Below, in pieces: positions 11,105-37,828 of a DNA stretch of 64,000 nucleotides; position 1 is the stretch's first letter, and the number at the start of each line of letters is the position of its first letter. The notes beneath the pieces are model-generated. The model was not told where the DNA came from. It saw nothing but the letters and a program-made list of their open reading frames with translations, and made no database searches. The stretch covers positions 1 to 64,000 of the forward strand of contig JAJCYM010000057.1 in the NCBI GenBank assembly GCA_029262895.1, written 5' to 3'. The stretch comes from Roseivirga sp. (lineage in GTDB: Bacteria; Bacteroidota; Bacteroidia; Cytophagales; Cyclobacteriaceae). Both the position numbers and the translations under genes were made by a program.

Positions 11105-11139
11105 GGAATTGGCTAGTTAGACTTTTTTAATGAGATATC

Positions 11140-11364
11140 TTATTTCGGCCGCCTCTCTTTCTTTCGTTTAAAGTAGAGTATAACATATAGGGTGAGGATG
11201 AGATAGATTACAATGTGCTTGTACCATTCGATTATGGTCCAATTATCGAAGTTATCAGGGAAGCGAATCTTCTCAATCCACATGTAGCTAAAGATAACGA
11301 AACCGAAAACAGCCCAGGCTAAAATAAAAGGGTTGAAAATATATTTTTCTTTAATCTTAATCAT
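11140..11364 (-). CDS. Small membrane protein, unknown function
   Basis: 74 residues with two clear membrane helices (about 10-30, NPFILAWAVFGFVIFSYMW, and about 46-66, HIVIYLILTLYVILYF) and a strongly basic tail (KRKKERRPK), which suggests that both ends are cytoplasmic. The leader has no obvious Shine-Dalgarno, as is usual in this phylum. I do not recognise a family. The compositional pattern is protein-like, so it is probably a real gene. It sits 35 bp upstream of the epimerase-like gene in the same direction. Confidence 0.55.
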   Translation of the reverse strand: MIKIKEKYIFNPFILAWAVFGFVIFSYMWIEKIRFPDNFDNWTIIEWYKHIVIYLILTLYVILYFKRKKERRPK

Positions 11365-11716
11365 AAGATTTATTTCTTATCAGCGCGCGTCATACACCGG
11401 GCAAACTGAGCAGCCATTACTAAGAAGACCAAATTCTGAAGCAACCCTTATTCCAACTTTTTTAAACAACTTGATTGCGGCCTTTCTAAAGGCTTTACTT
11501 CCTGAATTAGACTTAAATATAAACAAGAAAGAGTTAATTGGAAAACGGAATTATCCAATTTTGAAAAACCATATTAAACCTAAAGAACTATATAGGCAGG
11601 TATCTAATAGTCATTAGAAAGCCAGTTTCTAGAGATTCCTGATAAATCTTTTTCCATGTAAAAATTGAAAAAGTATTTTCCGGAATAACGTTCTATCATG
11701 GTTTTAGGAATGCTGT
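11365..11716. other. 352-bp intergenic region without a supportable gene
   Basis: AT-rich sequence between the small membrane gene and the 3' end of bshA (both leftward). An open frame runs on the + strand from 11333 to 11617, but it has no recognisable domain and overlaps the start of the small membrane gene. I see no tRNA, terminator hairpin or repeat. It probably contains the promoter for the leftward 11364 gene. Confidence 0.5.
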
Positions 11717-19963: not shown

Positions 19964-21004
19964 TTAGCTTTTATTGGCCAGTTGCCCACAGGCAGCATCT
20001 ATGTCTTTGCCTCTGCTTCGCCTGACATTTACCACAACCCTCTTGGACTCCAAAATTTGCTCGTACATCTCAATCTTTTCGGGAGCAGCTTGTTGAAATT
20101 CACCATCATCAATGGGGTTGTATTCGATTAAATTCACCTTTGAAGCTACTTTTCCACAATATTTTGCAAGTGCTCGCGCATGTTCCTCATCATCATTGAT
20201 GCCCTTCCAAACCACGTATTCGAACGTGACTGTCCTGCCCGTCTTATTATACCAATGTTGAAGTGATTCTAATAACTCACTCAAGTTGCTCTTCTCATTG
20301 ATGGGCATCATCCTGGAACGCGTTTCATCAATGGCTGAGTGCAACGAAACCGCCAGATTAAATTTCACCTCCTCATCCGCCATTCTCTTGATCATTTTTG
20401 GAATGCCCACGGTGGACAAGGTGATCCGTTTTGGCGACATTCCTAAACCCGTTGGAGAGGTGATTTTTTCGATAGAGTCTATAACGTTTTGGTAGTTAAG
20501 CAGAGGTTCACCCATGCCCATATACACAATGTTTGTGAGCGGCCTGTCAAAGTATAGTTCTCCCTCTTCCTTAATGGCAACCACCTGATCATATATTTCA
20601 TCAGGGTTTAAATTGCGCATTCTTTTGAGTCGGGCAGTTGCGCAGAAATTACAATCGAGACTACACCCCACCTGCGAGGAGATGCAGGCCGTGATTCGTT
20701 TACTGGTTGGAATCAAAACGGATTCAACAATCAATCCATCATGCAACTTGACCGCATTTTTAATGGTGCCATCAGTACTGCGTTGCATCTCATCAACCTG
20801 GATATAGTTAATGGTAAAATGCTCTTTTAGCTTATCCCTCACTTTCAGAGAGATATTGGTCATTTGATCAAAATCCTTGGCCGATTTTTTCCAAAGCCAT
20901 TCATAAAGCTGTTTGCCGCGAAATGGTTTTTCGCCAATGCTCACAAAAAACTCTTGAATTTCCTCCAAAGAAAGTTGCCGAACGTCCTTTTTGGTTTCCA
21001 CCAT
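19964..21004 (-). CDS. rlmN: RlmN, 23S rRNA (adenine-C2503) methyltransferase (dual rRNA/tRNA)
   Basis: 346 residues. A radical-SAM enzyme that methylates C2 of A2503 in 23S rRNA and, in many bacteria, A37 of some tRNAs. The N-terminal helical domain (LSLEEIQEFFVSIGEKPFRG, LYEWLWKKSAKDF) matches the family. The 4Fe-4S motif is C114-x3-C118-x2-C121 (CSLDCNFC), preceded by SSQVG, and the catalytic mono-methylated cysteine is C339 in AACGQLANK. Length and motifs are complete. It stands between the convergent rhomboid operon and the MG-plug array and is probably monocistronic. Confidence 0.95.
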   Translation of the reverse strand: MVETKKDVRQLSLEEIQEFFVSIGEKPFRGKQLYEWLWKKSAKDFDQMTNISLKVRDKLKEHFTINYIQVDEMQRSTDGTIKNAVKLHDGLIVESVLIPTSKRITACISSQVGCSLDCNFCATARLKRMRNLNPDEIYDQVVAIKEEGELYFDRPLTNIVYMGMGEPLLNYQNVIDSIEKITSPTGLGMSPKRITLSTVGIPKMIKRMADEEVKFNLAVSLHSAIDETRSRMMPINEKSNLSELLESLQHWYNKTGRTVTFEYVVWKGINDDEEHARALAKYCGKVASKVNLIEYNPIDDGEFQQAAPEKIEMYEQILESKRVVVNVRRSRGKDIDAACGQLANKS

Positions 21005-21094: not shown

Positions 21095-23545
21095 TTACTG
21101 ACTTTTTTTGATTTGATAAGTCTTAGTCACAGAAAATGGATTTCCATAAGCAGACAGTCCCTGTAAGTCAATAAGAATCTCTGTGTCCTCATCAGAATTC
21201 CAGAATTGAATCTCTGCCTCCCCGTTTTCATCAAGAATAATCATCGGCTGCCAGTGCAGGACAATTCGACTATCAGGCTTGACATGTTCGGGTATTTGCA
21301 CATCGTATTTTGGAGCATAAAATTCCCTTGGCTGGTGGTAGCTATTTTTTAACCTGGTGGTTAAGATACCTGGTGTTTCAATCACCGTGGGGTCAATATC
21401 CGTTTTTGTATAAAATGCCAGTACACCACCTGCACCATCTGAGCCAAAAACAGCGGTGCTTGCAAGGCTTTTGTATGCCACTACTCTATCAATGAGATTT
21501 GCCGGGTAGCTGGATATAAAAGCGAAACTAACCGCTACATCGTCCAGTAATACCAATGCGGGAAGTCTTCTAGTGAAGTTACGAGCTCTCAAATAAGGGG
21601 TATATTCAAAATTTAGGTTTTCAACAATAAGCCCTGGTATTTGTCCAATGATGGCTTGTAAAGGGTTTTTCCATCCCGCATATCTTATATCATCTGAGAA
21701 GTCAACAAGATTATCTCCTCTGCCATAGAGACCCTTCAATTTCTCTTCCCTTGAGTCCTTCTTGCTTCCTTCAACCACAACATCTTCAAGCCTTGTTACA
21801 TCTGTAGTATCAAAATTGTAAGTCCTGTTGATAAGGTCACGTCTATCTCTTTTCTGGGTAAACATTTCCATATCTACTGAGCTGGTCTTTTGAAGCACGG
21901 ATTTAAAGCTGGTAGGGATTTCTTTTAATTCCAGGAGCGTGTCCAGTTCGAATTCCACATAGGGTTTGTCTTTTTTATTTACACCCTGGATAACAATTTC
22001 ATGGTCTTCAAAGATGCTCAGTGTATCAAATCTAAAAGAACCGTCCGAGGCTGTTTTGGTCTCCAGAAAGGTGGGGGGAAGAGCACTTTTGTTCAAGAAC
22101 TTTACTTTACCCGTTTGGTTTTTCCTTCCCGAAAATGTTTTGAGCCTACCTTCCACACTAATACCCTGTTCGACAAAATGTTCAGCCTCAGGATATTTTT
22201 TCTGAAGAACGTTGTCCCAAACAAATCTGGTCCAGCCATGAGTCATCATTAATAGGTCCAAATGTCCACTGGCCAAGGAGTTGTTTGAGTCAAAATAATA
22301 CATAGGGTTATGGATATAGCCCTTGAGGTCAGAGGCAAGGAGCAGCTCTGAATGTATGGTATTTGTTGGTTGCCTATCCACGGTCTGCCCAATGTCTATG
22401 GCACTCAGTGAAAATACCCCGGCCACCGGTTTGCCCTCCTCATCGAGGACCTTGATTTTGGCACTGACCATTTCTCTGGGCCTATAGACCGGCTTGTCAA
22501 TACTGAATTGGAGGTTGCTGTAATTAGGGGTGTTGACAAATACCAACCGTTCGGCCACCGGATTGCCCGATTTATCGAATAAGGTAATGTGCGCAATACC
22601 GGCAGGCATATCCGCTTTCGGAATTCTGGCAACCACCGCGTTTTCGGAAAGGTCTACATTAAATGCATGAGAAATGGCCCCTCGGGTATGGACCACTGCA
22701 CTAAGGTCACTTTTGTTTGGCGTGGCTTCATTAGACCTGAAGACCAATGCAATGTTGTCCGGAAGGTTGTTGCTGGCCGCAATCACAAAACCCCTTTCGA
22801 GGGCTTTGGGTAGTTCAGCAGTTTGGCTATGCCCTTCCAACCTGACCGAGTACACCTTTCCACTTTGGGGAGTAAACTTAAACAGCCCCATGCCATCATG
22901 CTGTACAACCAACCGGGCCACTTGGAGCCCCTCATTGTCATAGATGGCACCGGAGACATCAATTCCCCTGCCTGAAGTGTCAATGGCCTTAAAAGCTACT
23001 TTGCTAGGGACGTCCACCACCAGGTTGCCACCTTCGGGAAAGAACTGCAGGTCGATGCTCTCAGCGGTATTTTCGGAGACTACTGCAGGATCACCGCCAA
23101 CTACGACCAGTTCCTTTTCAAAGAAAAAGGCCTTGTCGAAATTCCTCATCCAGTTGGTATAGGCACGCAGCACATAGCTGCCAGATTGCAATGAATCGGG
23201 CAAGTCAAAAGATCCGTTTCCAAACCCGCCATCTACCCTTACCAGTTTATGATCTATAAGCAGTTTTTCAGAAGAATAGAGTTCTACATAGATGTTGTTG
23301 CTCAAAGGAGAAGGCTCGTTGTATCTTCCTGCGGAGAGGTAGGCCTGGAACCATATAGTTTCCCCCGGAGCATAGTATTTCCTATCAGTATGGATATAGG
23401 TCTTTTCCTGAGGGAAGGTGGCGCTATAATCTTCCAATTGTGATCCCAGCCTTTCGAAAAATCGGTTTGATTGAGCGATCGCGATAGAATGGCAGAAGCA
23501 AATCGAAATTAGTAACATTAGGATTTTGGGCACTCTATGTATCAT
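21095..23545 (-). CDS. MG2-like / barrel-less TonB-plug surface protein (short copy A)
   Basis: About 816 residues from the start chosen here (MIHRVPK), where a signal peptide begins (ILMLLISICFCHSIAIAQ); the same ATG is conserved in the other short copies, while the upstream reading frame is not. Domains in order: macroglobulin MG2-like segment (FPQEKTYIHTDRKYYAPGET, IWFQAYLSAGRYNEPSPLS), further beta-sandwich MG-type repeats to about 560, and a TonB-receptor plug domain at about 600-720 (IPGLIVENLNFEYTPYL, RLPALVLLDDVAVS, AVFGSDGAGGVLAFYTK). A final beta domain has IVLHWQPMIILDENGEAEI and ends IKKSQ. No transmembrane beta-barrel follows the plug, so it cannot be a TonB transporter alone. 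Likely an outer-membrane or surface protein; function unknown. Last member of the array. Confidence 0.82.
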   Translation of the reverse strand: MIHRVPKILMLLISICFCHSIAIAQSNRFFERLGSQLEDYSATFPQEKTYIHTDRKYYAPGETIWFQAYLSAGRYNEPSPLSNNIYVELYSSEKLLIDHKLVRVDGGFGNGSFDLPDSLQSGSYVLRAYTNWMRNFDKAFFFEKELVVVGGDPAVVSENTAESIDLQFFPEGGNLVVDVPSKVAFKAIDTSGRGIDVSGAIYDNEGLQVARLVVQHDGMGLFKFTPQSGKVYSVRLEGHSQTAELPKALERGFVIAASNNLPDNIALVFRSNEATPNKSDLSAVVHTRGAISHAFNVDLSENAVVARIPKADMPAGIAHITLFDKSGNPVAERLVFVNTPNYSNLQFSIDKPVYRPREMVSAKIKVLDEEGKPVAGVFSLSAIDIGQTVDRQPTNTIHSELLLASDLKGYIHNPMYYFDSNNSLASGHLDLLMMTHGWTRFVWDNVLQKKYPEAEHFVEQGISVEGRLKTFSGRKNQTGKVKFLNKSALPPTFLETKTASDGSFRFDTLSIFEDHEIVIQGVNKKDKPYVEFELDTLLELKEIPTSFKSVLQKTSSVDMEMFTQKRDRRDLINRTYNFDTTDVTRLEDVVVEGSKKDSREEKLKGLYGRGDNLVDFSDDIRYAGWKNPLQAIIGQIPGLIVENLNFEYTPYLRARNFTRRLPALVLLDDVAVSFAFISSYPANLIDRVVAYKSLASTAVFGSDGAGGVLAFYTKTDIDPTVIETPGILTTRLKNSYHQPREFYAPKYDVQIPEHVKPDSRIVLHWQPMIILDENGEAEIQFWNSDEDTEILIDLQGLSAYGNPFSVTKTYQIKKSQ

Positions 23546-23746
23546 ATCAAATTGTTTCAAGAGAGGGCTAATATGTTGTTGGGCTCGGAAGAATAACAAT
23601 CTAGGCTATCAATGACCTTATTTTTATTCGATAGTTGTCCTCAAGTTGAACGGATATGCTTACTACTGTTTTCTCTAACACTGACCATCATTTCTTAAAC
23701 CGGGATTTTTTAAGACCGAGTAGAATGATGGTTTTGAAATGGCTTA
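23546..23746. repeat. Array spacer repeat R1
   Basis: The leader of short copy A plus the spacer to short copy B. It is nearly identical to R3 (30847-31045) and clearly related to R2 (26198-26367), sharing for example atcaatgacctta and tctaacactgaccatc-like stretches. It marks duplication of an 'end of one gene + spacer + start of next' block. Confidence 0.8.
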
Positions 23747-26197
23747 TTAATTTTTTTTGATCTCGTAGATTTTTGTTGTGGAAAATGGATTTCCATAGGC
23801 AGACAGTCCCTGTAAGTCAATAAGAATCTCTGTGCCCTCATCAGAATTCCAGAATTGAATTTCTGCCTCCCCGTTTTCATCAAGAATAATCATCGGCTCC
23901 CAGTGCAGGACAATGCGACTATCAGGTTTAACATGTTCGGGTATTTGCACATCATATTTCGGAGCATAAAATTCCTTGGGCTGGTGATAGCTATTTTTTA
24001 ACCTGGTGGTCAAGATGCCGGGTGTCTCAATACTCTTGGGGTCAATATCCGTTTTTGTATAAAATGCCAGTACACCTCCTGCACCATCCGAGCCAAAAAC
24101 AGCGGTTTTTGCCAGGCTTTTGTATGTCACCGCTCTATCAATGAGATTTGCCGGGTAGCTGGATATAAACTGGCTACTAACCGCTACATCGTCCAGTAAT
24201 ATTAATGCGGGAATTCTTCCTGATATAGTACGACCCCTTAGATAAGCGGTATATTCAAAATTTTGTTGTTCAATAATAAGCCCTGGTATTTGTCCTCTGA
24301 TAGCTTCAAAGGGATTTTTCCATCCCGCATTTCTTACATCATCTGAGGAGAAGTCAACAACACCATCTCCTTTGCCATAGGCACCCTTCAATTTTTCCTC
24401 CCTTTCGTTTTTCCTGCTTCCCTCAACCACAACATCTTCAAGCCTTGTTACTTTTGTAGTATCAAAATTGTAGGTTCGGTCAATAAGGCCTCGTTTATCC
24501 CTTTTCTGGGCAAACACTTCTATGTCTCCGGAATTGGTCTTTTGAAGGACAGATTTAAAGCTGGTGAGGAGTTCTTTTAATGCTGGAAGGGTATCCAGTT
24601 CGAATTCCACGAAGGGTTTGTCTTTTTTATTTACTCCCTGGATCACAATTTCCTGATCTTCAAAGATGCTCAGTGTATCGAATCTAAAAGAGCCGTCCGA
24701 GCCTGTTTTGGTCTCCAGAAAGATGGGGGGGAAAACACTCTTGCTCATGAGCGTTACCTTACCTGTTTCCTTTTTCCTTCCCGAATACGATTTAAGCTTA
24801 CCTTCCACACTAATACCCTGTTCAACAAAATGCTCAACTTCGGGTTTTTTTTTCTGAAGGACGTTGTCCCAAACAAATCTGGTCCAGCCATGGGTCATCA
24901 TCAATAGGTCCAGATGTCCACCGGCCATGGAGTTGTTTGAGTCAAAATAATACATAGGGTTATGGATATAGCCTTTGAGGTCAGAGGCAAGGAGTAGCTC
25001 TGAATGTATGGTGTTTGCTGGTTGCCTATCCACAGTCTGCCCCAGGTCTATAGCACTCAGTGAAAACACCCCGGCCACTGGTTTGCCCTCCTCATCGACC
25101 ACCTTGATTTTGGCACTAACCATTTCTCTGGGTTTATAGTCAGGCTTGTCAATACTGAACTGTAGTTTGCTGTAACTCTGGTTGTTGACAAATACTAACC
25201 GTTCGGCCACTGGATTACCCGATTTATCGAATAAGGTAATGTGTGTAATACCGGCTGGCATGTCCACTTTTGGAATTCTGGCAACCACCGCTTTTTCGGA
25301 AAGGTCCACTTCAAATGCATGAGAAATGGCCCCCCGGGTATGCACCACTGCGCTGAGGCTATTCTTATTTGGGGTGGCTTCATTAGACCTGAAGACCAAC
25401 ACTATGTTGTCTGGCAGATTGTTGGTGGCCGAGATCACAAAACCCCTATCAAGTGCTTTGGGTAGTTCAACAGTTTCACTATGCCCTTCCAACCTGGCCG
25501 AGTACACCTTCCCCCTTTGTGGAGTAAACTTAAACAGTCCCATACCATCATGCTGTACCAGCAACCGGGAAACCTCAGTCCCCTCGTTGTCATAGATGCC
25601 ACCAGAGACATCAATTCCCCTCCCTGAAGTGTCAATGGCCTTAAAAGCTACTTTGCTGGGCACTCCCGCCACAAGATTGCCGCCTTCAGGGAAGAACTGC
25701 AGGTCGATGCCCTCAGCGATATTTTCGGGAACTTTTGCAGGATCATCACCAATTACGACCAGCTCCTTTTCAAAGAAAAAGGCTTTGTCAAAATTCCTCA
25801 TCCAGTTGGTATAAGCACGTAGCACATAGCTGCCAGATTGTAGTGAATCGGGCAAGTCAAAGGATCCGTTTCCAAACCCGATATCTGCCCTCACCAGTTT
25901 ATGGTCTATAAGCAGTTTTTCAGAAGAGTAGAGCTCTACATAGATGTTGTTACTTAATGGAGAGGGTTCATTGTATCTTCCTGCGGAGAGGTAGGCCTGG
26001 AACCATACTGTTTCTCCAGGGGCGTAGTATTTTCTGTCCGTATGTATATAAGCTTTTTCTTGAGGAAAGGCGGCACTAAACTCTACTAATTGGGTCCCCA
26101 ACCTTTCGATAAATCGATTTGACTGAGCCAGGGCTATAGAATGGCAGAAACAAATCGAAACAAGAAGGACAAGGATTTTGGGTAATCTATGGATCAT
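23747..26197 (-). CDS. MG2-like / barrel-less TonB-plug surface protein (short copy B)
   Basis: About 816 residues, starting at the conserved MIHRLPK with signal peptide ILVLLVSICFCHSIALAQ; the longer frame would need a GTG 15 bp upstream. Close paralogue of short copy A throughout: MG2-like FPQEKAYIHTDRKYYAPGET, LQFFPEGGNLVAGVPSKVAF, the MMTHGWTRFVWDNVLQ segment shared by all intact copies, plug domain with IPGLIIEQQNFEYTAYL, PALILLDDVAVSSQ and AVFGSDGAGGVLAFYTK, then the terminal beta domain. Its last residues (TTKIYEIKKN) match the long copy A ending rather than that of its nearer relative, short copy A, which suggests exchange between array members. Probable surface protein with no barrel; role unknown. 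Confidence 0.82.
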   Translation of the reverse strand: MIHRLPKILVLLVSICFCHSIALAQSNRFIERLGTQLVEFSAAFPQEKAYIHTDRKYYAPGETVWFQAYLSAGRYNEPSPLSNNIYVELYSSEKLLIDHKLVRADIGFGNGSFDLPDSLQSGSYVLRAYTNWMRNFDKAFFFEKELVVIGDDPAKVPENIAEGIDLQFFPEGGNLVAGVPSKVAFKAIDTSGRGIDVSGGIYDNEGTEVSRLLVQHDGMGLFKFTPQRGKVYSARLEGHSETVELPKALDRGFVISATNNLPDNIVLVFRSNEATPNKNSLSAVVHTRGAISHAFEVDLSEKAVVARIPKVDMPAGITHITLFDKSGNPVAERLVFVNNQSYSKLQFSIDKPDYKPREMVSAKIKVVDEEGKPVAGVFSLSAIDLGQTVDRQPANTIHSELLLASDLKGYIHNPMYYFDSNNSMAGGHLDLLMMTHGWTRFVWDNVLQKKKPEVEHFVEQGISVEGKLKSYSGRKKETGKVTLMSKSVFPPIFLETKTGSDGSFRFDTLSIFEDQEIVIQGVNKKDKPFVEFELDTLPALKELLTSFKSVLQKTNSGDIEVFAQKRDKRGLIDRTYNFDTTKVTRLEDVVVEGSRKNEREEKLKGAYGKGDGVVDFSSDDVRNAGWKNPFEAIRGQIPGLIIEQQNFEYTAYLRGRTISGRIPALILLDDVAVSSQFISSYPANLIDRAVTYKSLAKTAVFGSDGAGGVLAFYTKTDIDPKSIETPGILTTRLKNSYHQPKEFYAPKYDVQIPEHVKPDSRIVLHWEPMIILDENGEAEIQFWNSDEGTEILIDLQGLSAYGNPFSTTKIYEIKKN

Positions 26198-26603
26198 ATC
26201 AAGTTGTTTCACGAAAGGGTTAATATATTATTGAGTTTGAAAGAGAAGCAATTTTCACGCCATAAATGACCTTGTTTTCCCACAATTGCACACAAGTTGG
26301 AGGGATATGCCTACCACAGTTTTTTCTAACGTTGACCATCATTTCTAAAACCGGGATTTTTTTAAGTCAAATTGAGTTTTGATAATCTTACGCGGAATTC
26401 TGAAAAATGATTTTCCTTTTCCACAAAGGAAATTCCTCATCATATATTTTCCGAGTGTGACCTATGTATTTCGGTTTAACCTGGTTTATGCTTTGATGCT
26501 TTTGCTTGGCAATGGTTTATTCTGAAAAAGTAATTCGGATGATTTTTGGGAATTAGGCCGTTGGCACCGAATCGACAGGTTGTAAGAATGGTTTTGGAAT
26601 AAT
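26198..26603. repeat. Array spacer repeat R2 plus about 235 bp of unique spacer
   Basis: 26198-26367 matches spacers R1 and R3, more diverged. The remainder (26368-26603) has no counterpart in the other spacers and no supportable gene. It contains one AT-rich hairpin, tttccttt/aaaggaaa (26412-26419, 26425-26432). The region just before 26604 again resembles the 3' flanks of the other members. Confidence 0.65.
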
Positions 26604-29600
26604 CTATTGACTTTTTTTGATTTGATATGTCCTGGTAGCGAAAAAGGGGTTTCCATAGGCCGAGAGTCCCTGCAAGTCAATAAGAACTTCTGTATCCTCA
26701 TCAGAATTCCAGAATTGAATTTCTGCCTCCCCGTTTTCATCAAGAATAATCATGGGCTGCCAGTGCAGCACAATGCGGCTATCAGGTTTGAGATGCTCGG
26801 GTTTCTTCACATTATATTTGGGTGCATAAAACTCTCTTGGCTGGGAATAACTGTTTTTTAGACGAGTGATGTAGATACCTGGCCTTTCAATCTCTACAGG
26901 ATCAACATCAGTTTTTGTATAAAATGCCAGTGCACCACCTTCACCAGCTGATCCAAACATTGCCGAGGAGGAAATGCCCTTATATGTTACCATCCGGTCA
27001 ATATGCGATGCTGGAATAGATAGTAGAAAGTCAATTTCAGTAGGAATATCATCCAATAGAAGCAAAGCAGGTATTAGGCGCGAACCCATAATGCTTCGTC
27101 TATTTCTAATGTTTACCATGACAATCTGGCCTCGCTCACGAACGACCGTTACTCCAGGAATTTTGCCAATGATGGCTTCCAAAGGAGAGGAACTTGCCTG
27201 GACAGCGGCATTCAGGTTCGAAAAATCTACTACTCCATCCCCCCTTCCATAAACTTGGCTTCTCAATACAGATTCATCGGCCTTGAATTTGCTGCCTTCG
27301 ACCACTACCTCATCAAGCTGTGTAGTTGCTGTACTATCGAAGTTGTAAGTTTGGTCGATAAGGTCACGGTAGTCCTTTTTCTGGGCAAACACTTCCATAT
27401 CTCTGAAACTGGTCCTTTGAAGCACTGATTTAAAGCTGGTTGGGGGTTCTTTCAATGAGAAGGCTGTGTCCAGTTCGAATACCACATGGGGCTTGTCTTT
27501 TTTATTGACCCCCTGAATTATAATTTCATGATCTTCATAGATGCTCAATGTATCGAACCTAAAAGAGCCATCCTCGGTTGTTTCGGTCACAAGAAAAGTA
27601 GGAGGCTGTGAACTTTTGTTCAGGAACGTGACTTTGCCAATTTCCTCCTTTTTCCCGGAAAGATTTTTGAGCTTTCCTTCCAGGCTAATGCCCTTTTCTA
27701 CAACGTGGTCAACATTGGGGTAATTTTTCCAGAGCACGTTGTTCCATTCAAACCTACTCCAACCATGGGTCATCATCAAAAGATCCAAGTGCACATTGGC
27801 CATTTGGTTGTTTGGATCAAAATAATACATAGGATCTTGAACATAGCCCTTCAAATCCGAGGCAAGCAGTAGTTCCGAATAGATGGTGTTTGCCTGTTGC
27901 CGATCTATGGTCTGGCCCAGATCTATAGCACTCATGGAAAATACTCCGGGAACAGGTCTGCCCTCCTCATCGGTCACCTTGATTTTGGCACTGACCATTT
28001 CTCTGGAACCATAGACTGGCTTGTCAATACTGAGTTTTAAGTTGATAGAACTCGCGTTGTTGATAAAGGCTAACCTTTCAGCCACAGCGTTACCCCAGTT
28101 ATCGAATAAGGTAATGTGTGAAATACCTGTAGGTATGTCCTTCTTTGGAACCCTTGTTATGTTCACATTTTTAGAAAGGTCTACTTCAAATGCACGTGAG
28201 ATGACCCCCTTGGTATGTATCACTGCACTCAGGTTGGCCTTGTTCCAGGTGGCTTCATTAGATTTGAAGACCACCACGAGGTCATCGGTAAGATTATTGT
28301 TGATTCCAATTACAAAACCCTGATCAAGAGCTTTTGGTAGCTCAATTCTTAAGCCTTGTTGCTCCAATCTGGCGGTATATGTCTTTCCTGCTTGAGGGGT
28401 GAACTCAAAAAGGCCCATGCCCTCATGTTGCACCGCCATTTGAGCCACCTCCAGCCCTTCATTGTCATAGACTGCTCCAGTGATAGTAACTCCTCTCCCC
28501 GAAGTATCAATGGCCTTAAAGGCTACCTTACTAGGGACGCCCACTACCAGATTACCACCTTCCGGGAAGAACTGCAGGTCAATATCCTGATTGATCACAT
28601 TTATCGGGTCATCATCGGAATTATCATCACCAATCACAACAAGTTCCTTTTCAAAGAAAAAGGCATTGTCAAAATTCCTCATCCAGTTGGTATATGCACG
28701 CAGCACATAGCTTCCGGCTTGCAAAGAATCAGATAAGGTAAAGGCTCCGTTTCCGAACCCGCCATCTACCCTCACTAGTTTTTTGTCTATAAGTGATTTT
28801 TCAGATGAGAAAAGCTCTACATAGATATTATTGCTCAAAAGCGAGGGCTCATTGAACCTGCCTGCTGAGATGTACGCTTGAAACCATATGGTTTCCCCTG
28901 GGGCGTAATATTTCCTATCAGTATGAATATAGGTCTTTTCCTGCGGAAAATTGGCTGTATACGTATTAAGACTTGGCTGAAATAAACCCAAGTTGATCCC
29001 GTCTGTTGGTGGTGTAATTTGGTTGGCTCGAAGCCCGTCAGACTCGTATTCAAAGTCAAACGGAAGCATTTCGTATAGTCCTTCCGTAGAGAGATACCCA
29101 TAGGCCGTTATGGATCTTGGATCCACCAAAAGGCCATTGGTATACACAAGTACAAAACCTTTATTAGCTTTTAAGTAGGTCAACTGGCCTTGACCATTTG
29201 CCATGGATTCTCTCAGGTATCGGACTTTGAGAAAGTCCTCAAATATAATTTTTTTGATTCTGTCATCACCAGTGTCTTCGATTTTCAGCGGAGTAACTGC
29301 CTTTTTTTGAATTGCTCCTGAACTTAAGAAACCCACATAGGGTCTATCATTTCGTTCAAGAGGATCTTGCTGGGTCAATTCGGATTCAAATAACTCTTGT
29401 TTAAGTGACCCTGATAGCAAAGACTTAAAGAAATGCCTTAGTGATCCTTCATAAGATTTCCTTCTATTAGTTATCCATTTTTGTCCTTCATCAGGATCAT
29501 CTGACTCCATCGGTTTAAACCTTGGATAACCGACCATAAATTGCCGAATTCCATTACCCAAAAGAAAATTTTCCACCGGATAAAAGATTTCATAACCTGT

Positions 29601-30134
29601 ATAGCTATTGTTGATTTGTAGTGTGAATGGCTCCTTTTCAACAATGGTATTTCTTTTTTGTAAGAATTCTGCCTGATAGAAATTAGGAATTTCTATGTCT
29701 TTTTTCCGGTAATGGTCACCGAGGATGTACTTTTTAAATCTCTCGAACTGTCTCTGCCATTTTTTGTCTTCTTTATCCTCTACTTGAGCAAATATGGGTG
29801 GGGGAGGTTTTTCCTCCAAAATTACTGAGCCCAAATCAATGTTCTTGGAATCAATGACTAGTCGAAAGGACTTGTAATTATAGCTTACATGGGATATGAT
29901 CAAATCATAAATGCCCGGTTTTAAATTTGAGATTGTAAAATTACCATTCTCATCAGTCATGGTTCCAATGGTACTTCCAGAAAGATAGACATTGCAAGCC
30001 GGAATCGTTTCTCTGGACCCCTCCATCAGAACAATCCCTTTGACAGAGTAGGTCTGGGCAGCCAGATTTCCAGCAAGGAAAAGGAGGATTGTAGTAAGGG
30101 CTATGTTTCTGGATATCTTAATAAAATGATTCAT
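26604..30134 (-). CDS. CarboxypepD_reg-like + MG2-like + TonB-plug surface protein (long copy B)
   Basis: 1176 residues. Signal peptide (IALTTILLFLAGNLAAQ), CarboxypepD_reg-like beta-sandwich at about 28-110 (VKGIVLMEGSRETIPACNVY, GTMTDENGNFTISNLKPGIY), then a region found in Bacteroidota surface proteins (WQRQFERFKKYILGDHYRKK, INNSYTGYEIFYPVENFLL) to about 385. From FPQEKTYIHTDRKYYAPGET onward it follows the short copies: MG-type repeats, MMTHGWSRFEWNNV, plug domain (IPGVTVVRERGQIVMVNIRN, AMFGSAGEGGALAFYTK) and terminal beta domain ending TYQIKKSQ. So a long copy is a short copy with a 390-residue N-terminal extension. The chimeric remnant lies 37 bp upstream, which mirrors the thioesterase 36 bp upstream of long copy A. 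Confidence 0.83.
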   Translation of the reverse strand: MNHFIKISRNIALTTILLFLAGNLAAQTYSVKGIVLMEGSRETIPACNVYLSGSTIGTMTDENGNFTISNLKPGIYDLIISHVSYNYKSFRLVIDSKNIDLGSVILEEKPPPPIFAQVEDKEDKKWQRQFERFKKYILGDHYRKKDIEIPNFYQAEFLQKRNTIVEKEPFTLQINNSYTGYEIFYPVENFLLGNGIRQFMVGYPRFKPMESDDPDEGQKWITNRRKSYEGSLRHFFKSLLSGSLKQELFESELTQQDPLERNDRPYVGFLSSGAIQKKAVTPLKIEDTGDDRIKKIIFEDFLKVRYLRESMANGQGQLTYLKANKGFVLVYTNGLLVDPRSITAYGYLSTEGLYEMLPFDFEYESDGLRANQITPPTDGINLGLFQPSLNTYTANFPQEKTYIHTDRKYYAPGETIWFQAYISAGRFNEPSLLSNNIYVELFSSEKSLIDKKLVRVDGGFGNGAFTLSDSLQAGSYVLRAYTNWMRNFDNAFFFEKELVVIGDDNSDDDPINVINQDIDLQFFPEGGNLVVGVPSKVAFKAIDTSGRGVTITGAVYDNEGLEVAQMAVQHEGMGLFEFTPQAGKTYTARLEQQGLRIELPKALDQGFVIGINNNLTDDLVVVFKSNEATWNKANLSAVIHTKGVISRAFEVDLSKNVNITRVPKKDIPTGISHITLFDNWGNAVAERLAFINNASSINLKLSIDKPVYGSREMVSAKIKVTDEEGRPVPGVFSMSAIDLGQTIDRQQANTIYSELLLASDLKGYVQDPMYYFDPNNQMANVHLDLLMMTHGWSRFEWNNVLWKNYPNVDHVVEKGISLEGKLKNLSGKKEEIGKVTFLNKSSQPPTFLVTETTEDGSFRFDTLSIYEDHEIIIQGVNKKDKPHVVFELDTAFSLKEPPTSFKSVLQRTSFRDMEVFAQKKDYRDLIDQTYNFDSTATTQLDEVVVEGSKFKADESVLRSQVYGRGDGVVDFSNLNAAVQASSSPLEAIIGKIPGVTVVRERGQIVMVNIRNRRSIMGSRLIPALLLLDDIPTEIDFLLSIPASHIDRMVTYKGISSSAMFGSAGEGGALAFYTKTDVDPVEIERPGIYITRLKNSYSQPREFYAPKYNVKKPEHLKPDSRIVLHWQPMIILDENGEAEIQFWNSDEDTEVLIDLQGLSAYGNPFFATRTYQIKKSQ

Positions 30135-30171
30135 TTATTCAAGTTTATGCTGTATAATCTGCCAATTTCTT

Positions 30172-30846
30172 TCAGACTCTAACAGAGTTGAAACGTTTAC
30201 ATTTCTGCTCATAATTGAAAGTGCTAAAGGTAGTCTTTGCCCTTACAACTTCTTTTCCAGAGGCTAGTTGTCGAAGTGAATAAACCAACTCGAGACTGTA
30301 CCTGGTAATTTTCCCAACAGCCATCCCCTCATTGTCATATCTTATCCCAGATATATCAACCCCCTTACCTGAAGCATCAATGGCTTTCAAGGCCACTCCC
30401 AGGACCAGATTGCCGCCTTCAAAGAAAAAGGCCTTGTCGAAATTCCTCATCCAGTTGGTATAGGCACGCAGCACATAGCTGCCAGATTGCAATGAATCGG
30501 GCAAGTCAAAAGATCCGTTTCCAAACTCGCCATCTGCCCTCACCAGTTTATGGTCTATAAGCAGTTTTTCAGAAGAGTAGAGCTCTACATAGATGTTGTT
30601 GCTCAAAGGAGAAGGCTCGTTGTATCTTCCAGTAGAGAGGTAGGCCTGAAACCATATGATTTCCTCTGGGGCGTAATATTTCCTATCAGTGTGGATATAG
30701 GTCTTTTCCTGAGGGAAGGTGGGACTATAACCCTCCAATTGTGATCCCAGCCTTTCGAAAAATCGGTTTGATTGAACGAGTGCGATAGAATGGCAGAAGC
30801 AAATCGAAATTAGGAACATTAGGATTTTGGCCAATCTATGTATCAT
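30172..30846 (-). pseudogene. Chimeric remnant: start of a short MG-plug gene fused to the 3' end of a thioesterase gene
   Basis: An uninterrupted frame of about 224 residues from the conserved start MIHRLAK. Through AFFFE it is about 90% identical to short copy A. Then 28 residues (84 bp, in frame) are missing between FFFE and GGNLV, a further 4 residues are missing (GVALKAID versus GVPSKVAFKAID), and after YDNEGM the sequence becomes the C-terminal part of the thioesterase: AVGKITRYSLELVYSLRQLAS against AVTEISKYSFDLFYSLRQLAS, and KTTFSTFNYEQK against KTTIVTFDYEQK. The 3' flank resembles the thioesterase-to-long-copy spacer. No MG-plug function remains, yet all junctions keep the frame, so a secreted fragment could still be made. 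Confidence 0.85.
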
Positions 30847-31045
30847 ATCAAATTTTTTCAAGAGAGGGTTAATATGTTGTTGGGTTTGGAAGAATAACAA
30901 TTTAGGCAATCAATGACCTTATTTTTATTCGATAATTGCCCTCAAGTTGAACGGATATGCCTACTACTGTTTTCTCTAACACTGACCATCGTTTCTTAAA
31001 CTGGGATTTTTAAGATCGATTATAATGATGGCTTTGAAACGGCTA
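30847..31045. repeat. Array spacer repeat R3
   Basis: Leader of the chimeric remnant and spacer to long copy A. Nearly identical to R1, including tatttttattcgata, gttttctctaacactgac and the 3' end of the preceding gene (tctttttgatctcgtagat). It shows that the block 'EIKKN-type gene end + spacer + short-gene start' exists twice. Confidence 0.8.
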
Positions 31046-34000
31046 TTAATTCTTTTTGATCTCGTAGATTTTTGTTGCGAAAAAGGGATTTCCATAGGCC
31101 GAGAGCCCCTGCAAGTCAATAAGAACTTCTGTGTCCACATCAGAATTCCAGAATTTAATTTCCGCCTCCCCGCTTTCGTCAAGAATAATCATGGGCTGCC
31201 AGTGTAGCACAATGCGGCTGTCAGGTTTGATATGTTCGGGTTTCTGCACATTGTATTTGGGCGCATAAAATTCCCTGGGCTGGTGATAACTGTTTTTTAA
31301 GCGAGTTATGTAGATACCTGGCCTCTCAATCTCTACAGGACCAATATCTGTTTTCGTATAAAATGCTAATGCACCACCTTCTCCTGCTGACCCGAACATT
31401 GCTGAGGAGGAAATGCCCTTGTACGTTACCATCCGGTCAATATGTGATGCTGGAATGGATAGTAGAAAGTCAATTTCAGTAGGAATATCATCCAATAGAA
31501 GTAATGCAGGTATCAGGCCACCTCTAATACTTCGTCTATTTCTAATGTTCACCATGGTAATCTGGCCCCGGTCTCGAAGAATCCTTACTCCAGGGAGTTT
31601 GCCAATGATGGCTTCTAAAGGAGAGGAACTTGCATTCACAGCGTCACTTAGGAGCGAAAAATCCACTACTCCATCCCCCCTTCCATAAATCGGGCTTTTC
31701 AATACAGCTTCATCGGCTTTGAATTTGCTGCCTTCTACCACCACATCATCAAGCTCCGTTATAGCTGTGCTATCGAAGTTGTAAGTTTGGTCGATAAGGT
31801 CACGATAGTCTTTTTTCTCGGCAAATATTTTCGTGTCTCCCGCTCCGGTCTTTTGGATCACGGATTTAAAGTCGCTCAAAAGTTCCTTTACAATGAAGGC
31901 TGTGTTCAGTTCGAATGTCACATTGGGTCTGCCTTTTTTATTGACTCCCTGAACCACAATTTCCTGGTCTTCAAAGATGCTTAGCGTATCGAATCTGAAA
32001 GAACCGTCAGAGGCTGTGTTCGTCTCCAAAAAAGTAGGGGGGATCACAGACTTGTTCAGAAGTGTGACGGTGCCCGTTTCCTTTTTCTTCCCGGAAAGTG
32101 TTCTGAGCTTACCTCTCAGACTAATGCTCTGTTCCACAAAGTGCTGAGTATCAGGATATTTTTGTTGGAGCACATTGTCCCATACAAACCTTGTCCACCC
32201 ATGGGTCATCATTAAAAGATCCAGGTGTCTACTGGCTTCCGGGTTGCTTGTATCAAAATAGTACATCGGATTATGGACATAGCCCTTTAGGTCAGAGGTA
32301 AGCAGTAGTTCTGAATAGATGGTGTTTGCCGGTTGCCGATCCGCGGTTTGTCCCAGGTCTATGGCGCTCAGTGAAAACACGCCAGCCACTGGTTTACCCT
32401 CCTCATCGGTCACCTTAATTTTGGCACTAACCATTTCTCTGGACTTATAGTCAGGCTTGTCAATACTGAATTCCAGGTTGCCATAACCTGGATTGTTGAT
32501 AAAGGCCAATCTTTCAGCCACTGCATTGCCCGATTTATCGAATAAGGTAATGTGTGAAATACCGGTAGGTATGTCCTTCTTTGGAATCCTTGTAATGGTC
32601 ACGTTTTTAGAAAGATCCACTTTAAATGCACGGGAGATAACTCCTCGGGTATGTACCACCGCACTAAGGTTGCCTTTGTTTGGTGTGGCATCATTCGATC
32701 TGAAGACCAAGACGATGTCATCCGGCAAATTATTGTTGACGGTTATCACAAAACCCTTGGCAAGAGCCTTCGGTAACTCAACTGTCGTATTCTGCCCCCC
32801 TAACCTGGTAGAGTAAACCTTTCCCTCTTGAGGAGTAAACTCAAAAAGACCCATGCCATCGTGCTGTACAGCCAATTGGGCAATCTCTAGGCCATCATTA
32901 TCATAGACGGTTCCAGAGACAGGAACTCCCTTCCCAGAGGCATCTATAGCCTTAAAAGCAACCTGATTAGGAACTCCTTGAACCAAATTTCCACCCTCAG
33001 GAAAGAACTGTAGATCAATGTCATTTGCAGTAGTGCTTACAGGAGTTATAGCAGGGTCATTGGCAATCACGATGAGTTCCTTTTCAAAGAAAAAGGCCTT
33101 ATTGAAATTTCTCATCCAATTGGTATAGGCACGCAGTACATAACTGCCAGATTGCAATGAATCAGACAAGTTAAAGGCTCCGTTTCCGAACCCACCATCT
33201 GCTCGCACTAGTTTTTGGTCGATAAGCCGTTTTTCAGAAGAATAGAGTTCAACATAGATGTTATTGCTCAAAGGGGAGGGCTCGTTGAATTTCCCAGCAG
33301 AGAGGTAGGCCTGGAACCACACGGTTTCTCCTGGGGCATAGTATTTCCTGTCTGTATGGATATAGGTCTTTTCCTGTGGGAGAGCTTCCGTATACGCGCT
33401 AAGACTCGGGTGAAATACATCCAAGCCGATCTGGTCTTTTGGTTGTTTAATTTGACTGTTCCCAGATGGATCAATGTCATATTCAAAGTCAAAAGGAAGC
33501 ATTTCATACAATCCTTCAGTGGAGAGATATCCGTAGGCGGTTATAGACATTGGATCCACCAAAAGGCCATTGGTGTAAACAAACACAAAACCCTTGTTAG
33601 CTTTTAAATAGGTCAATTGGCCTTGGCCATTTGCCATGGATTCTTTCAAGTATCTGACTTTGAGAAAGTCCTTAAATACTATTTTTTTGATCCTATCATC
33701 GCTGGTGTCCTCGATTTTCAGAGAGCCTGTTGCCCCATTTTGAACTGCTCCTGAAATCGAAACCGCAGCATTTGGTTTGTTATTTCGGTTGAGAGGGTCT
33801 TGATCAGTTAGTTCGGATTCAAAAAATTCTTGTTCAAGCGATCCTGAAAGTAATGACTTAAAGAAATGCCTCAGTGATCCTTCATAAGATTTCCCCCTGT
33901 TCGCTTCCCATTTTTGTACCTCATCAGGATCATCTGACTCCATTGACTTAAACCTGGGATAACCAACCATAAATTGCTGAATTCCATTACCCAAAAGAAA

Positions 34001-34552
34001 ATCTTGAACAGGATAAAAAATTTCATAACCTGTATAGTTATTGTTGATTTGTAGTGTGAAAGTCTCCTTTTTGACCAGGGCATTTCCCGCTCGCTTGAAT
34101 TCTGCCTCATAGGCATTGGGGATTTCTATATCTTTTTTCCTAAAGTGGTCACCTAGGATGTATTTTTTAAATCTCTCGAACTGCCTCTGCCACTTCCTGT
34201 CTACTTTATCCTGTACTTCTGTAAATGTGGTTTGGATAGGTTTTTCCTTCAAAAACACCGAGCCAAGATCAATATCTTTAGAAGTGATATTAATGGCAAC
34301 GGACTTGAAATTATAGCTGACATGTGACACGATCAAGTCATAAACGCCAGGGTTTAAACCTGAAATGGTAAAATTACCGTTCTCATCGGTCATTGTGCCA
34401 ATGGTACCTCCCGAAAGATAAACATTGCAGGCTGGTATCGTTTCTCTGGATTTGCTCTCTCTAACGACACCCTTGACGGAGTACGTCTGCCCAACTATGA
34501 GATGGCCAGCTAGAAAAAAGAGAATCGAGACAAAGCCTATATTCCTAGACAT
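31046..34552 (-). CDS. CarboxypepD_reg-like + MG2-like + TonB-plug surface protein (long copy A)
   Basis: 1168 residues, collinear with long copy B: signal peptide (VSILFFLAGHLIVGQ), CarboxypepD_reg-like domain (VKGVVRESKSRETIPACNVY, TMTDENGNFTISGLNPGVY), WQRQFERFKKYILGDHFRKK region, MG2-like start at LPQEKTYIHTDRKYYAPGET, MG-type beta repeats, MMTHGWTRFVWDNVLQQ, plug domain (LPGVRILRDRGQITMVNIRN, AMFGSAGEGGALAFYTK), terminal beta domain ending TKIYEIKKN. No barrel. It is 36 bp downstream of the thioesterase gene, so the two are likely co-transcribed; this pair appears to be the source of the block that was duplicated to give the chimera and long copy B. Cellular role unknown; probably exposed at the outer membrane. 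Confidence 0.83.
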   Translation of the reverse strand: MSRNIGFVSILFFLAGHLIVGQTYSVKGVVRESKSRETIPACNVYLSGGTIGTMTDENGNFTISGLNPGVYDLIVSHVSYNFKSVAINITSKDIDLGSVFLKEKPIQTTFTEVQDKVDRKWQRQFERFKKYILGDHFRKKDIEIPNAYEAEFKRAGNALVKKETFTLQINNNYTGYEIFYPVQDFLLGNGIQQFMVGYPRFKSMESDDPDEVQKWEANRGKSYEGSLRHFFKSLLSGSLEQEFFESELTDQDPLNRNNKPNAAVSISGAVQNGATGSLKIEDTSDDRIKKIVFKDFLKVRYLKESMANGQGQLTYLKANKGFVFVYTNGLLVDPMSITAYGYLSTEGLYEMLPFDFEYDIDPSGNSQIKQPKDQIGLDVFHPSLSAYTEALPQEKTYIHTDRKYYAPGETVWFQAYLSAGKFNEPSPLSNNIYVELYSSEKRLIDQKLVRADGGFGNGAFNLSDSLQSGSYVLRAYTNWMRNFNKAFFFEKELIVIANDPAITPVSTTANDIDLQFFPEGGNLVQGVPNQVAFKAIDASGKGVPVSGTVYDNDGLEIAQLAVQHDGMGLFEFTPQEGKVYSTRLGGQNTTVELPKALAKGFVITVNNNLPDDIVLVFRSNDATPNKGNLSAVVHTRGVISRAFKVDLSKNVTITRIPKKDIPTGISHITLFDKSGNAVAERLAFINNPGYGNLEFSIDKPDYKSREMVSAKIKVTDEEGKPVAGVFSLSAIDLGQTADRQPANTIYSELLLTSDLKGYVHNPMYYFDTSNPEASRHLDLLMMTHGWTRFVWDNVLQQKYPDTQHFVEQSISLRGKLRTLSGKKKETGTVTLLNKSVIPPTFLETNTASDGSFRFDTLSIFEDQEIVVQGVNKKGRPNVTFELNTAFIVKELLSDFKSVIQKTGAGDTKIFAEKKDYRDLIDQTYNFDSTAITELDDVVVEGSKFKADEAVLKSPIYGRGDGVVDFSLLSDAVNASSSPLEAIIGKLPGVRILRDRGQITMVNIRNRRSIRGGLIPALLLLDDIPTEIDFLLSIPASHIDRMVTYKGISSSAMFGSAGEGGALAFYTKTDIGPVEIERPGIYITRLKNSYHQPREFYAPKYNVQKPEHIKPDSRIVLHWQPMIILDESGEAEIKFWNSDVDTEVLIDLQGLSAYGNPFFATKIYEIKKN

Positions 34553-34588
34553 CCCATAAAGTACTCAAAGTGAGCAGTGTATTCAAGC

Positions 34589-35026
34589 CTAAGTGGTGCG
34601 ATCTGCCAGTTTCTTCAGAAGCCTGTCAGGGATAGGACATTTCTTTTTCTGCTCATAGTCAAAGGTGACTATGGTCGTTTTTCCCCTGGCAATTTCTTTC
34701 TCGGAGGCCAATTGTCTAAGCGAGTAAAACAGGTCGAAGCTGTATTTTGAAATTTCCGTAACTGCTATTTTTATTTGAATTTCATCTCCATGAAAAGCTT
34801 CGCTCCTGTAGGAAACGGCCAGATCAGCCTGAATGGTACCAATGCCCTCAATGGATATCTCATCTGCGTAGCCTAATGACTGAAAGAACTGATACCTGGC
34901 CTCGTGGATAAGGCTTACCATAGCATCGTTGCCCAAATGCCCACCATAATTCAAGTCGGTCACTCTTACTTTGAGCTGAGTTTCGAAAACATAAGATTCG
35001 GGGAGGTCGATTTTGATTCTTGCCAT
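34589..35026 (-). CDS. Hot-dog-fold acyl-CoA thioesterase (4HBT family)
   Basis: About 145 residues from the start chosen here (MARIKIDLPESYVF); the frame extends 7 codons further, but family members begin close to this methionine. The single hot-dog domain has the 4HBT/YbgC-like opening VRVTDLNYGGHLGNDAMVSLIHEAR, with the helix that carries the catalytic acid, then the central strands (IQADLAVSYRSEAFHGDEIQI) and YSFDLFYSLRQLASEKEIARG. It hydrolyses an acyl-CoA thioester; which one is unclear. Cytoplasmic, so an odd partner for the surface proteins downstream, although the spacing is only 36 bp. Its 3' third has been copied to form the tail of the chimeric ORF at 30172-30846. Confidence 0.85.
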   Translation of the reverse strand: MARIKIDLPESYVFETQLKVRVTDLNYGGHLGNDAMVSLIHEARYQFFQSLGYADEISIEGIGTIQADLAVSYRSEAFHGDEIQIKIAVTEISKYSFDLFYSLRQLASEKEIARGKTTIVTFDYEQKKKCPIPDRLLKKLADRTT

Positions 35027-35182
35027 AGATACTGCTAAAAGCCTCAAAGCTAAGACATAATGGCTGAATTTGAAGCTTTTATCCGTTCGAAATCGGACAA
35101 AATTTCCGAATTTTTGATATGGACAACTCTTTGAGGATGCCGGAGCGACAGGGTGAATTGGTAATTAAGAAAATACAGATAA

Positions 35183-37828
35183 ATGGATTTTAAGAACTAT
35201 ACAATCAAATCTCAGGAAGCTATCCAGAAGGCGGCCGAGGTGGCAGCTGGCAATCAGCAACAAGCCATTGAGCCGGGACATCTGCTGAAAGCTATCCTCT
35301 TGTCTGATGAGAATGTAATTTCTTTTCTGACCAAGAAATTGAGTGTAAACAAAGTGTCTTTGGAACAGAAGCTGAACGAAATATTGGAAGGCTATCCAAA
35401 GGCTAGTGGACAGCAGCCTTATTTGTCTAACGATGCACATACTGCTTTGACCAAGGCAACTGAATATCTCAAAGAGTTTAAAGATGAGTATGTGGCCATA
35501 GAGCACATTGTGCTTGGCCTCTTAGGGGGTAAAGAAAAGATTGCCGCTTTATTAAAGGAGGTTGGTTTTGGAAAGAAGGAGCTGATTGCGGCCATAAAGG
35601 AATTGAGGGGCGGGAACTCAGTTACTGACCCCAATGCTGAAGCCAAATACCAGTCGCTTGATCGGTATTCCAAAAACCTGAACAACATGGCCAAGGAAGG
35701 AAAAATTGATCCGGTCATAGGACGCGATGAAGAGATCAGGCGCGTACTTCAAATTCTATCTCGAAGAACAAAGAACAACCCGATGCTTATTGGGGAACCG
35801 GGTGTAGGTAAAACGGCTATTGTTGAAGGTCTTGCACAAAGAATAGTGGATGGCGATGTGCCTGAAAACCTGAAATCAAAAACCATCATTTCCCTGGATA
35901 TGGGGCTGCTGGTTGCCGGTGCAAAGTATAAAGGGGAATTCGAAGAAAGATTAAAGGCTGTGATAAAAGAAGTACAGGATTCAGCCGGAGAGATTGTCCT
36001 TTTTATTGATGAAATCCATACCCTGATTGGAGCAGGTGGTGGCGAAGGGGCTATGGATGCTGCAAACCTGTTAAAGCCTGCACTTGCCCGAGGAGAACTG
36101 CATGCTGTTGGTGCCACTACTTTAAAAGAATATCAAAAGCATATTGAAAAGGATAAGGCGCTGGAGCGAAGGTTTCAGACCGTGATTGTTGATGAGCCCG
36201 ATCAGGATGACGCCATCTCCATTCTTCGGGGGATCAAAGAAAAGTATGAGGTGCATCATGGTGTACGAATAAAGGATGACGCGGTAATTTCAGCAGTTGA
36301 GCTTTCTTCCAGATATATATCGGACCGATTCCTGCCAGATAAAGCCATTGATTTGATGGATGAGGCAGCCGCTAAATTGCGCCTCGAAATAGACTCACTT
36401 CCGGAAGAACTGGATGAATTACAGCGCAGGATAATGCAGCTCGAAATTGAGCGCGAGGCCATTAGAAGAGAGAAGAACAAAGACAAGGAGTCTGTGCTTT
36501 CCAAAGAAATCGCTGAACTCTCGGAGACACGAGATAGTCTCAAGGCGCAATGGGAAAATGAGAAGTCCGTGATTACAGGAATTCGACAAGAGAAGGAAAA
36601 TATTGATCGCTTCAAACAAGAGGCCGAAAAGGCCGAACGTGAAGGAGACTTGGGCCGGGTTGCTGAAATACGCTACGGCAAAATCACAGAAAGTGAACAG
36701 AGGTTGGAAGGATTCAAGGAGAAAATGAAAGAGATGCAGGGAGAAAAATCCTTGCTTAAAGAGGAGGTCGACAGTGAGGACATTGCTGAAGTAGTAGCCA
36801 AATGGACCGGCATTCCGGTCTCCAAGATGATTCAGAGTGAAAGAGAGAAATTGCTTCACCTGGAAGACGAATTAGGTAAACGTGTGGCTGGTCAGAAAGA
36901 AGCCATTTCGGCACTTTCAGATGCTGTGCGCAGAAGCAGGGCAGGACTTCAGGACCCCAAAAGACCTATAGGCTCTTTTATTTTCCTTGGAACAACCGGA
37001 GTGGGAAAGACTGAGCTTGCGAAGGCATTGGCTGAGTATCTCTTCAATGATGAAAACAATATGGTTCGCATAGATATGTCGGAGTATCAGGAGCGCCATG
37101 CGGTGAGTCGTTTGATCGGAGCTCCTCCCGGATACGTGGGTTATGATGAGGGGGGTCAGCTCACTGAAGCGGTTCGGAGAAAGCCATATTCAGTTGTCTT
37201 GCTGGATGAGATTGAAAAGGCGCATCCAGACGCTTTCAACGTCTTGTTACAAGTGCTGGATGAAGGTCGATTGACGGATAACAAAGGTCGTGTGGCTAAT
37301 TTCAAGAATACCATCATCATTATGACTACCAATATTGGCTCTCATATGATTCAGGAGAACTTTGAGAAGATCAATGAAGACAATGTCTTTGATGTGATGG
37401 ATGAAACAAAACTTCAGGTGTTTGAAATGCTGAAGAAATCTGTTCGACCAGAGTTTCTAAATCGTATTGATGAAACCATCATGTTTATGCCTTTGAATAA
37501 GGAAAACATAAGGCAAATCGTTGAGATACAATTTGGACTGGTTCAAAAGCAGCTCAAGGAAAATGGTATTGAGATTGAAGCAAGTACCGCAGTATTGGAT
37601 TACTTGGGAGAGCTAGGTTTTGATCCTCAGTTTGGAGCAAGGCCGCTTAAAAGGGTTATTCAGAGAAAAGTACTTAATGAACTTTCAAAGAGGATTTTGG
37701 CTGATCAAATTCAGAAGGACGCTGTTGTTAGCATTGAGCTTGACAGCAATCAGGAGATTCAATTCGTGAATATTGATACACCAGCCGACCCTTCTATCGA
37801 GGGCGAAACCAAAACAGCCGATAGCTAG
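35183..37828 (+). CDS. clpB: ClpB protein disaggregase
   Basis: 881 residues. AAA+ chaperone that, with DnaK/DnaJ, rescues aggregated proteins after heat stress. All parts are present: N-terminal Clp_N repeats (about 1-145), first ATPase with Walker A GEPGVGKT (204-211) and Walker [12 protein letters not shown], the long coiled-coil middle domain (about 405-530, many Glu/Arg/Lys heptads), second ATPase with GTTGVGKT (603-610) and [20 protein letters not shown], and the C-terminal small domain ([18 protein letters not shown]). The substrate-pore motif [10 protein letters not shown] and [13 protein letters not shown] are also visible, and there is no ClpP-docking loop. It is monocistronic, divergent from the thioesterase gene. 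No clear heat-shock operator is seen upstream. Confidence 0.97.

Follow-up and report, generated by a model that had tools for sequence, protein, structure and literature searches.

A chimeric MG2–thioesterase reading frame as a probable rearrangement scar in an expanding gene array of Roseivirga

The gene array and its chimeric frame

The window (the whole stretch of 64,000 nucleotides that was analysed) carries on its minus strand an array of genes in the order thioesterase, D, chimera, C, B, A, rlmN. At one end lies an intact hot-dog thioesterase gene (4HBT_2; 34589..35026), referred to here as TE, and at the other an rlmN-like radical SAM gene (19964..21004). Between them are two short MG/plug genes, A (21095..23545) and B (23747..26197), and two long genes, D (31046..34552, 1168 aa) and C (26604..30134, 1176 aa), which appear to be duplicate fusions of an R part with a short (S) gene. 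C and D are homologous throughout, lie on the same strand in direct-repeat order and are 79.1% identical at the nucleotide level over 1167 codons (dS 0.67-0.82). They share both the R part and the plug region, and in places the S half of C is roughly as similar to A as it is to D. Around the plug domain (alignment columns ~2850-3150) identity between A/B and C/D drops to 39-48%. The flanking columns are mostly at 66-88%, and C and D keep 85-89% identity to each other here; replacement of a domain is possible. The 406-nt gap between C and B (26198-26603) resembles in its last part the leaders of A and of the chimera, which suggests a leader block common to three short-gene starts. No solved structure matched long protein C at E 0.01.

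The chimeric ORF (30172..30846, minus strand) lies between D and C, with C directly behind it. It is a single open frame of 224 aa counted from its ATG, and the mechanically called ORF, with a TTG start at 30909, has 245 aa. The frame consists of a signal-peptide-like start (identified by eye), an MG2 domain, a short MG remnant and a thioesterase tail. A first-pass annotation, made from the letters alone, had described it as an in-frame chimera of an MG gene start and a thioesterase gene end, and we found the frame open and both homologies significant. The start was said to be a near copy of short gene A; the first 143 codons and the DNA upstream are indeed ~93% identical to A (92.8% over 628 nt, 30418-31044, upstream noncoding DNA included), and identity to B is 83.3% over 597 nt. 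In-frame losses of exactly 84 bp and 12 bp, also noted earlier, are both visible in the alignment with A and B. The 84-bp loss is flanked by a repeated GAA and coincides with the edge of a homogenised tract described below; it marks the 5' edge of an older short-gene remnant (30325..30420) which is identical to A at 71 of 96 nt and carries the 12-bp loss.

After YDNEG the chimera departs from the MG genes and continues as thioesterase sequence. DNA alignment of the part following YDNEGM with the thioesterase gene, proposed earlier as a check, gave significant similarity (30136-30324 against 34580-34768, 68.4% over 190 nt), with E values of 2e-13 and 7e-13 in the window for queries of 286 and 912 nt, respectively, and 1.8e-11 in the organism's own genome, where TE was the best second hit for 30135-30400. 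In a protein search, 58 codons were in register with TE residues 87-144 at 59% identity, interrupted by one TGA. The tail therefore derives from residue 87 onward of a hot-dog thioesterase (PF13279), runs to a TE-type stop (30145..30324; the stop at 30145-30147) and is broken by the TGA at 30172-30174, where the chimeric frame ends 9 codons short of the TE-type stop. Thus, while the homology to the end of the thioesterase stands, the thioesterase frame is not kept to that end. A compensating -1/+1 pair near the nonsense codon is possible, as read by eye from the alignment. Homology to TE continues beyond the chimera stop and into the 37-nt gap before C (30135..30171), which aligns with the end of TE and the TE-to-D gap, so that the flank joining the thioesterase to a long MG gene has been kept, as had been remarked. 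At the main joint at most a few shared bases are visible. The homologies of the chimera are real and more than chance.

Only TE residues 87-136 are left in the chimera, the N-terminal 86 residues are missing, and we found neither a complete hot-dog domain nor any 4HBT hit at E 1; the chimera cannot be a thioesterase. With the MG2 and plug proteins of the genus and of other Bacteroidota it shares the start and the MG2 domain, without any of the later MG and plug parts, and the MG2 hit is itself below the Pfam cut-off (26.8 vs 32.8 bits). Two near-invariant glycines, G61 and G107, are both replaced by glutamate in a 12-row alignment. A structure model, built from an alignment of 12 sequences with no other rows for the thioesterase part, predicted the MG2 core with confidence (strands between residues 47 and 129; pLDDT 73-85 in blocks from residue 51 to 130) and no confident fold past residue 137, residues 137-224 being mostly below pLDDT 50 (mean pLDDT of the model 59.7). 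A secreted MG2 fragment is possible.

The chimera stop lies 37 nt before C and the thioesterase stop 36 nt before D, and a 199-nt leader of the short-gene type precedes the chimera. We infer from this arrangement that C is probably no longer placed behind the thioesterase's own upstream DNA and would be read from a short-gene leader, with the chimera as an upstream frame. In the region 26100-35300, sigma-70-like promoters showed no excess over shuffled sequence (23 vs 18.8, sd 5.0; a scan of a type that does not cover Bacteroidota promoters), nor did terminators (9 vs 8.9).

Divergence and constraint along the chimera

Divergence from the short genes changes abruptly within the chimera. Mismatches to A number 44/628 in the 5' tract and 25/96 in the mid remnant (Fisher p 2e-7), with 93% identity giving way to 74% where the 84 bp are lost. 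The younger tract (30418..31045) is ~93% identical to the B-A gap and the 5' end of A (23117-23744), and takes in 199 noncoding nt ahead of the chimera. Its outer end is probably formed by the final ~47 nt of long gene D (31046..31092), which are 91.5% identical to B, compared to 70.2% to A and 74.5% to C. The step in identity is therefore two-sided and independent of coding, as in a gene-conversion tract, although the outer edge rests on ~47 nt. Since the tract spans noncoding DNA and D has a B-like end, the 5' 0.63 kb, younger than the remainder, was probably overwritten by gene conversion, apparently from the B/A region. The 84-bp loss forms the inner edge of the tract, and loss and conversion may consequently have been one event. 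Identities of the mid part to A, B, C and D (71, 73, 71 and 66 of 96 nt) do not tell from which short gene it came.

The thioesterase tail is much more diverged. It is 67.8% identical to TE over 57 codons, with dS of 1.2-1.8 on 50 codons (ML, NG86; ML with all 57 usable codons saturated at 10.8), compared to dS 0.67-0.82 between C and D. The suggestion that the event was recent thus holds for the 5' 0.63 kb (93%, apparently homogenised with the B/A region), but not for the tail, whose 32% divergence is not less than that of the long genes from each other (21%).

Selection was assessed separately in each part. For the 143 codons of the 5' part, the chimera branch had an omega of 0.47 against a background of 0.08; a single omega was rejected (2dlnL 5.99), whereas omega = 1 was not (0.67). 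Nonsynonymous and synonymous changes numbered 8 and 6 on the chimera, compared to 3 and 7 on A, with 4 unassigned. As controls, B as target gave an omega of 0.07 with omega = 1 rejected (2dlnL 63.65), and A as target gave 0.27, indistinguishable both from 1 (2dlnL 0.58) and from the rest (0.70), indicating that power is low for young branches. The 5' part is less constrained than the background and compatible with neutrality at this low power. Preservation of the frame through three separate changes had been viewed in the first-pass annotation as unexpected for decay. We consider it a weak sign of function, since it amounts to three 1-in-3 chances, the GAA-flanked 84-bp loss lies at the edge of a tract, a nonsense codon arose later, and the 5' omega is indistinguishable from 1.

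The older parts departed mildly from neutral expectation. In the thioesterase tail, chimera-branch omega was 0.19 on a seven-row tree (2dlnL 6.6 vs 1; not different from background, 0.86), 0.24 with G005 as the sole outgroup (2dlnL 4.5, reached in 7/200 null simulations), and 0.44 when equal branch times were forced. In a simple neutral simulation, which ignores constraint on the TE branch, 34/58 residues were identical compared to 24.3 expected for wholly neutral change, and stops did not depart from neutrality (1 vs 1.47 expected); as this simulation loads all change onto one branch, the branch model was used for the verdict instead. Omega in the MG mid part (32 codons) was 0.22 (2dlnL 4.25 vs 1). 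The tail bears weak signs of past constraint, which we regard as modest. Such traces of constraint in the old parts suit genes that worked after a duplication and were truncated later, with room left for a retained frame, and fit poorly with a scar that was neutral from birth. Long gene C is under purifying selection, with omega 0.225 in its S part (2dlnL 33.3 vs 1) and 0.275 in its R part (2dlnL only 3.5).

The thioesterase-rlmN locus in relatives

We compared the locus with maps of 18 other members of the genus (G001-G018), counting by eye (blastp E 1e-3, with hitless ORFs shown on the maps only if longer than 200 aa). All 18 carry the thioesterase and an rlmN-like gene within one fetched stretch. 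A ClpC-like ATPase gene is also in that stretch in 15 and in the adjoining stretch in G008; in G010 and G017, where a contig end is close by, it did not appear. Thioesterase and rlmN have no listed ORF between them in 14 of the 18; the intervening genes are R genes in G005, G008 and G010 and an R::S gene in G018. ORFs hit by the MG proteins of the window were present in the fetched thioesterase stretch of 13/18 (not in G009, G011, G012, G015 and G016), and ORFs of >800 aa that gave no hit are adjacent to the thioesterase in G003, G007 and G015. Short genes are found on both sides of the thioesterase in G008; in G010 one side has long genes and the opposite side short ones. The unduplicated order TE - long - short was not found in the relatives examined. 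In G003, a run of R genes and shorter MG-like genes follows rlmN and a short gene (L047, 9904-18291), forming another expanded array. A scan of named genomes returned only distant loci, the best at 33% identity in Dyadobacter.

In the nearest relative, G005, the order is TE - R - R - rlmN - S - S, and the R gene that follows the thioesterase, R1 (362 aa), aligns with residues 7-356 of D (58.6%). R1 ends where C and D pass via a linker into their MG part, and the first ~30 residues of the short gene are absent from C and D at that point. In the R tree, G005 R1 is the sister of the R part shared by C and D (100/99). In the S tree, C and D group by their S parts (100/98), as do A and B (100/100), and the two pairs together make up a clade of four (100/100). 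The fused genes from G008, G010 and G018 are placed outside these groupings, that of G018, with the order TE - long - rlmN, on a long branch. The trees had 19 and 31 rows chosen by us; support is weak at the deep forks of the R tree, and the S tree drew a long-branch warning. What forms the N-terminal third of the long genes stands alone in G005, following the thioesterase, and C and D have the appearance of lineage-specific fusions between a CarboxypepD_reg-like R gene and a short MG/plug gene; the alternative is fission in G005 with homogenisation afterwards.

A copy of the thioesterase tail alone was seen in the organism's own genome only, among the matches listed in 39 genomes (own included). 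A wider search covered 295 family genomes, own included, sampled from a larger family, and 217 of them matched at E 0.001. It gave no other tail-only copy outside the own genome among the matches listed, and no two whole close thioesterases side by side. A second partial thioesterase copy was noticed by eye in the own genome (G000) and G073 only, among the matches listed, and weaker fragments may lie below the scores covered. In G073 it is an internal fragment (L088, ~11126-11404; 85% over 281 nt) located ~3.5 kb from the intact gene, with no MG-gene hit nearby in the fetched 19 kb.

Origin of the chimera and its meaning

The chimera is probably a rearrangement scar in an expanding gene array and not a new working gene. 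A block that begins within the thioesterase, spans the long gene and takes in the start of a short MG/plug gene would have become present twice in tandem, thereby joining a short-gene start to a thioesterase end ahead of the second long gene, C. Sequence of the B-A region would subsequently have replaced the first 0.63 kb of the scar together with the gap before it, the 84-bp loss possibly marking the inner edge, and a nonsense codon would have shortened the thioesterase part. Features of a duplication joint are present: a duplicated segment lies in direct order on both sides, and the joint links the short-gene 5' part (distal end) to the thioesterase 3' part (proximal end). Both homologies, the tandem order, the divergence step and the reduced constraint on the 5' part are observed, while the order of events, the direction of the conversion and the way the parts met, at a direct joint or through a later deletion, are inferred.

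The scar could have formed in two steps, by duplication of an intact TE - long - short block, after which the second thioesterase and short gene worked for a while until a deletion joined them. The intermediate constraint on the thioesterase tail and MG mid part (0.44 for the tail with equal branch times) and the absence of net frame change across 58 thioesterase codons suit this form, and the MG genes on both sides of the thioesterase in G008 and G010 make homologous duplication of a whole thioesterase conceivable. It does, however, need an extra event, the tests have low power (58 and 32 codons, saturated outgroups), and whole close thioesterases side by side are missing among the matches listed; we hold this form tentatively, as a serious possibility.

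A working chimeric protein is unlikely. That the chimera is expressed and useful, either as a secreted single MG2 domain or as a translated leader coupling a short-gene promoter to C, would agree with a frame still open after three length changes, a distance to C like that between TE and D, a retained signal-peptide-like start and MG2 core, a constrained C and a partly constrained tail. Set against this are a 5' omega above background and not different from 1, the loss of two near-invariant glycines, a tail that lacks a confident fold, an MG2 hit under the Pfam cut-off, and promoter-like sites no more frequent than in shuffles, and we judge such a role quite improbable.

The first-pass annotation had proposed that a block of thioesterase end and long gene was copied into a short gene; its right-hand end would then have been placed via homology between the S halves. 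The junction of such a duplicated block with a short-gene start is borne out, but copying into a short gene is less well supported, since the order follows no less simply from a single tandem duplication of [TE 3' - long - short 5'] or from a duplication with a subsequent deletion. Copying predicts the same topology and would accord with the S half of C being partly as close to A as to D; it requires two special joints, however, and the R part and plug region common to C and D are what duplication of the whole gene would give. We think it a poor candidate. An assembly or binning artefact is hardly credible, since homology continues across the joints into C and D, even though the genome is a draft of 102 contigs. 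Assembly collapse or a misjoined near-identical copy is rejected, as divergence from the parent sequences amounts to 32% in the tail and 7% in the 5' part.

Comparable joints are known. In Salmonella, duplication joints that fuse genes to novel promoters have been described (Anderson and Roth 1978, as cited in PMC11111574); the likeness is that a gene comes to lie behind foreign upstream DNA at the novel joint of a direct duplication, whereas the present case would be an old natural event in a paralogue array, read from sequence, with putative promoter use. Chimeric genes at tandem-duplication breakpoints have been studied in Drosophila (PMC5460883). Such genes are similar in that a joint inside two genes makes a hybrid gene; here the case is bacterial and single, and its 5' part was probably later overwritten by a paralogue. 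It is also conceivable, if rather unlikely, that the duplication was kept because it placed C, the second R::S gene, behind new upstream DNA, with the chimera a maintained translated upstream frame carrying a short-gene promoter; the array would then grow by in-frame hybrids, some of which (R::S) became permanent proteins and one (S::TE) a leader. As R and S are separate genes in the nearest relative and were apparently fused separately in another clade, we suggest that R and S proteins work together.

The view of the chimera as a duplication scar with a probable later conversion patch is well supported, and such a scar is ordinary in kind and instructive in detail. Duplication joint, conversion patch and in-frame fusions can be separated within one sequence, making readable the growth of a surface-protein-like array beside a conserved thioesterase-rlmN locus.
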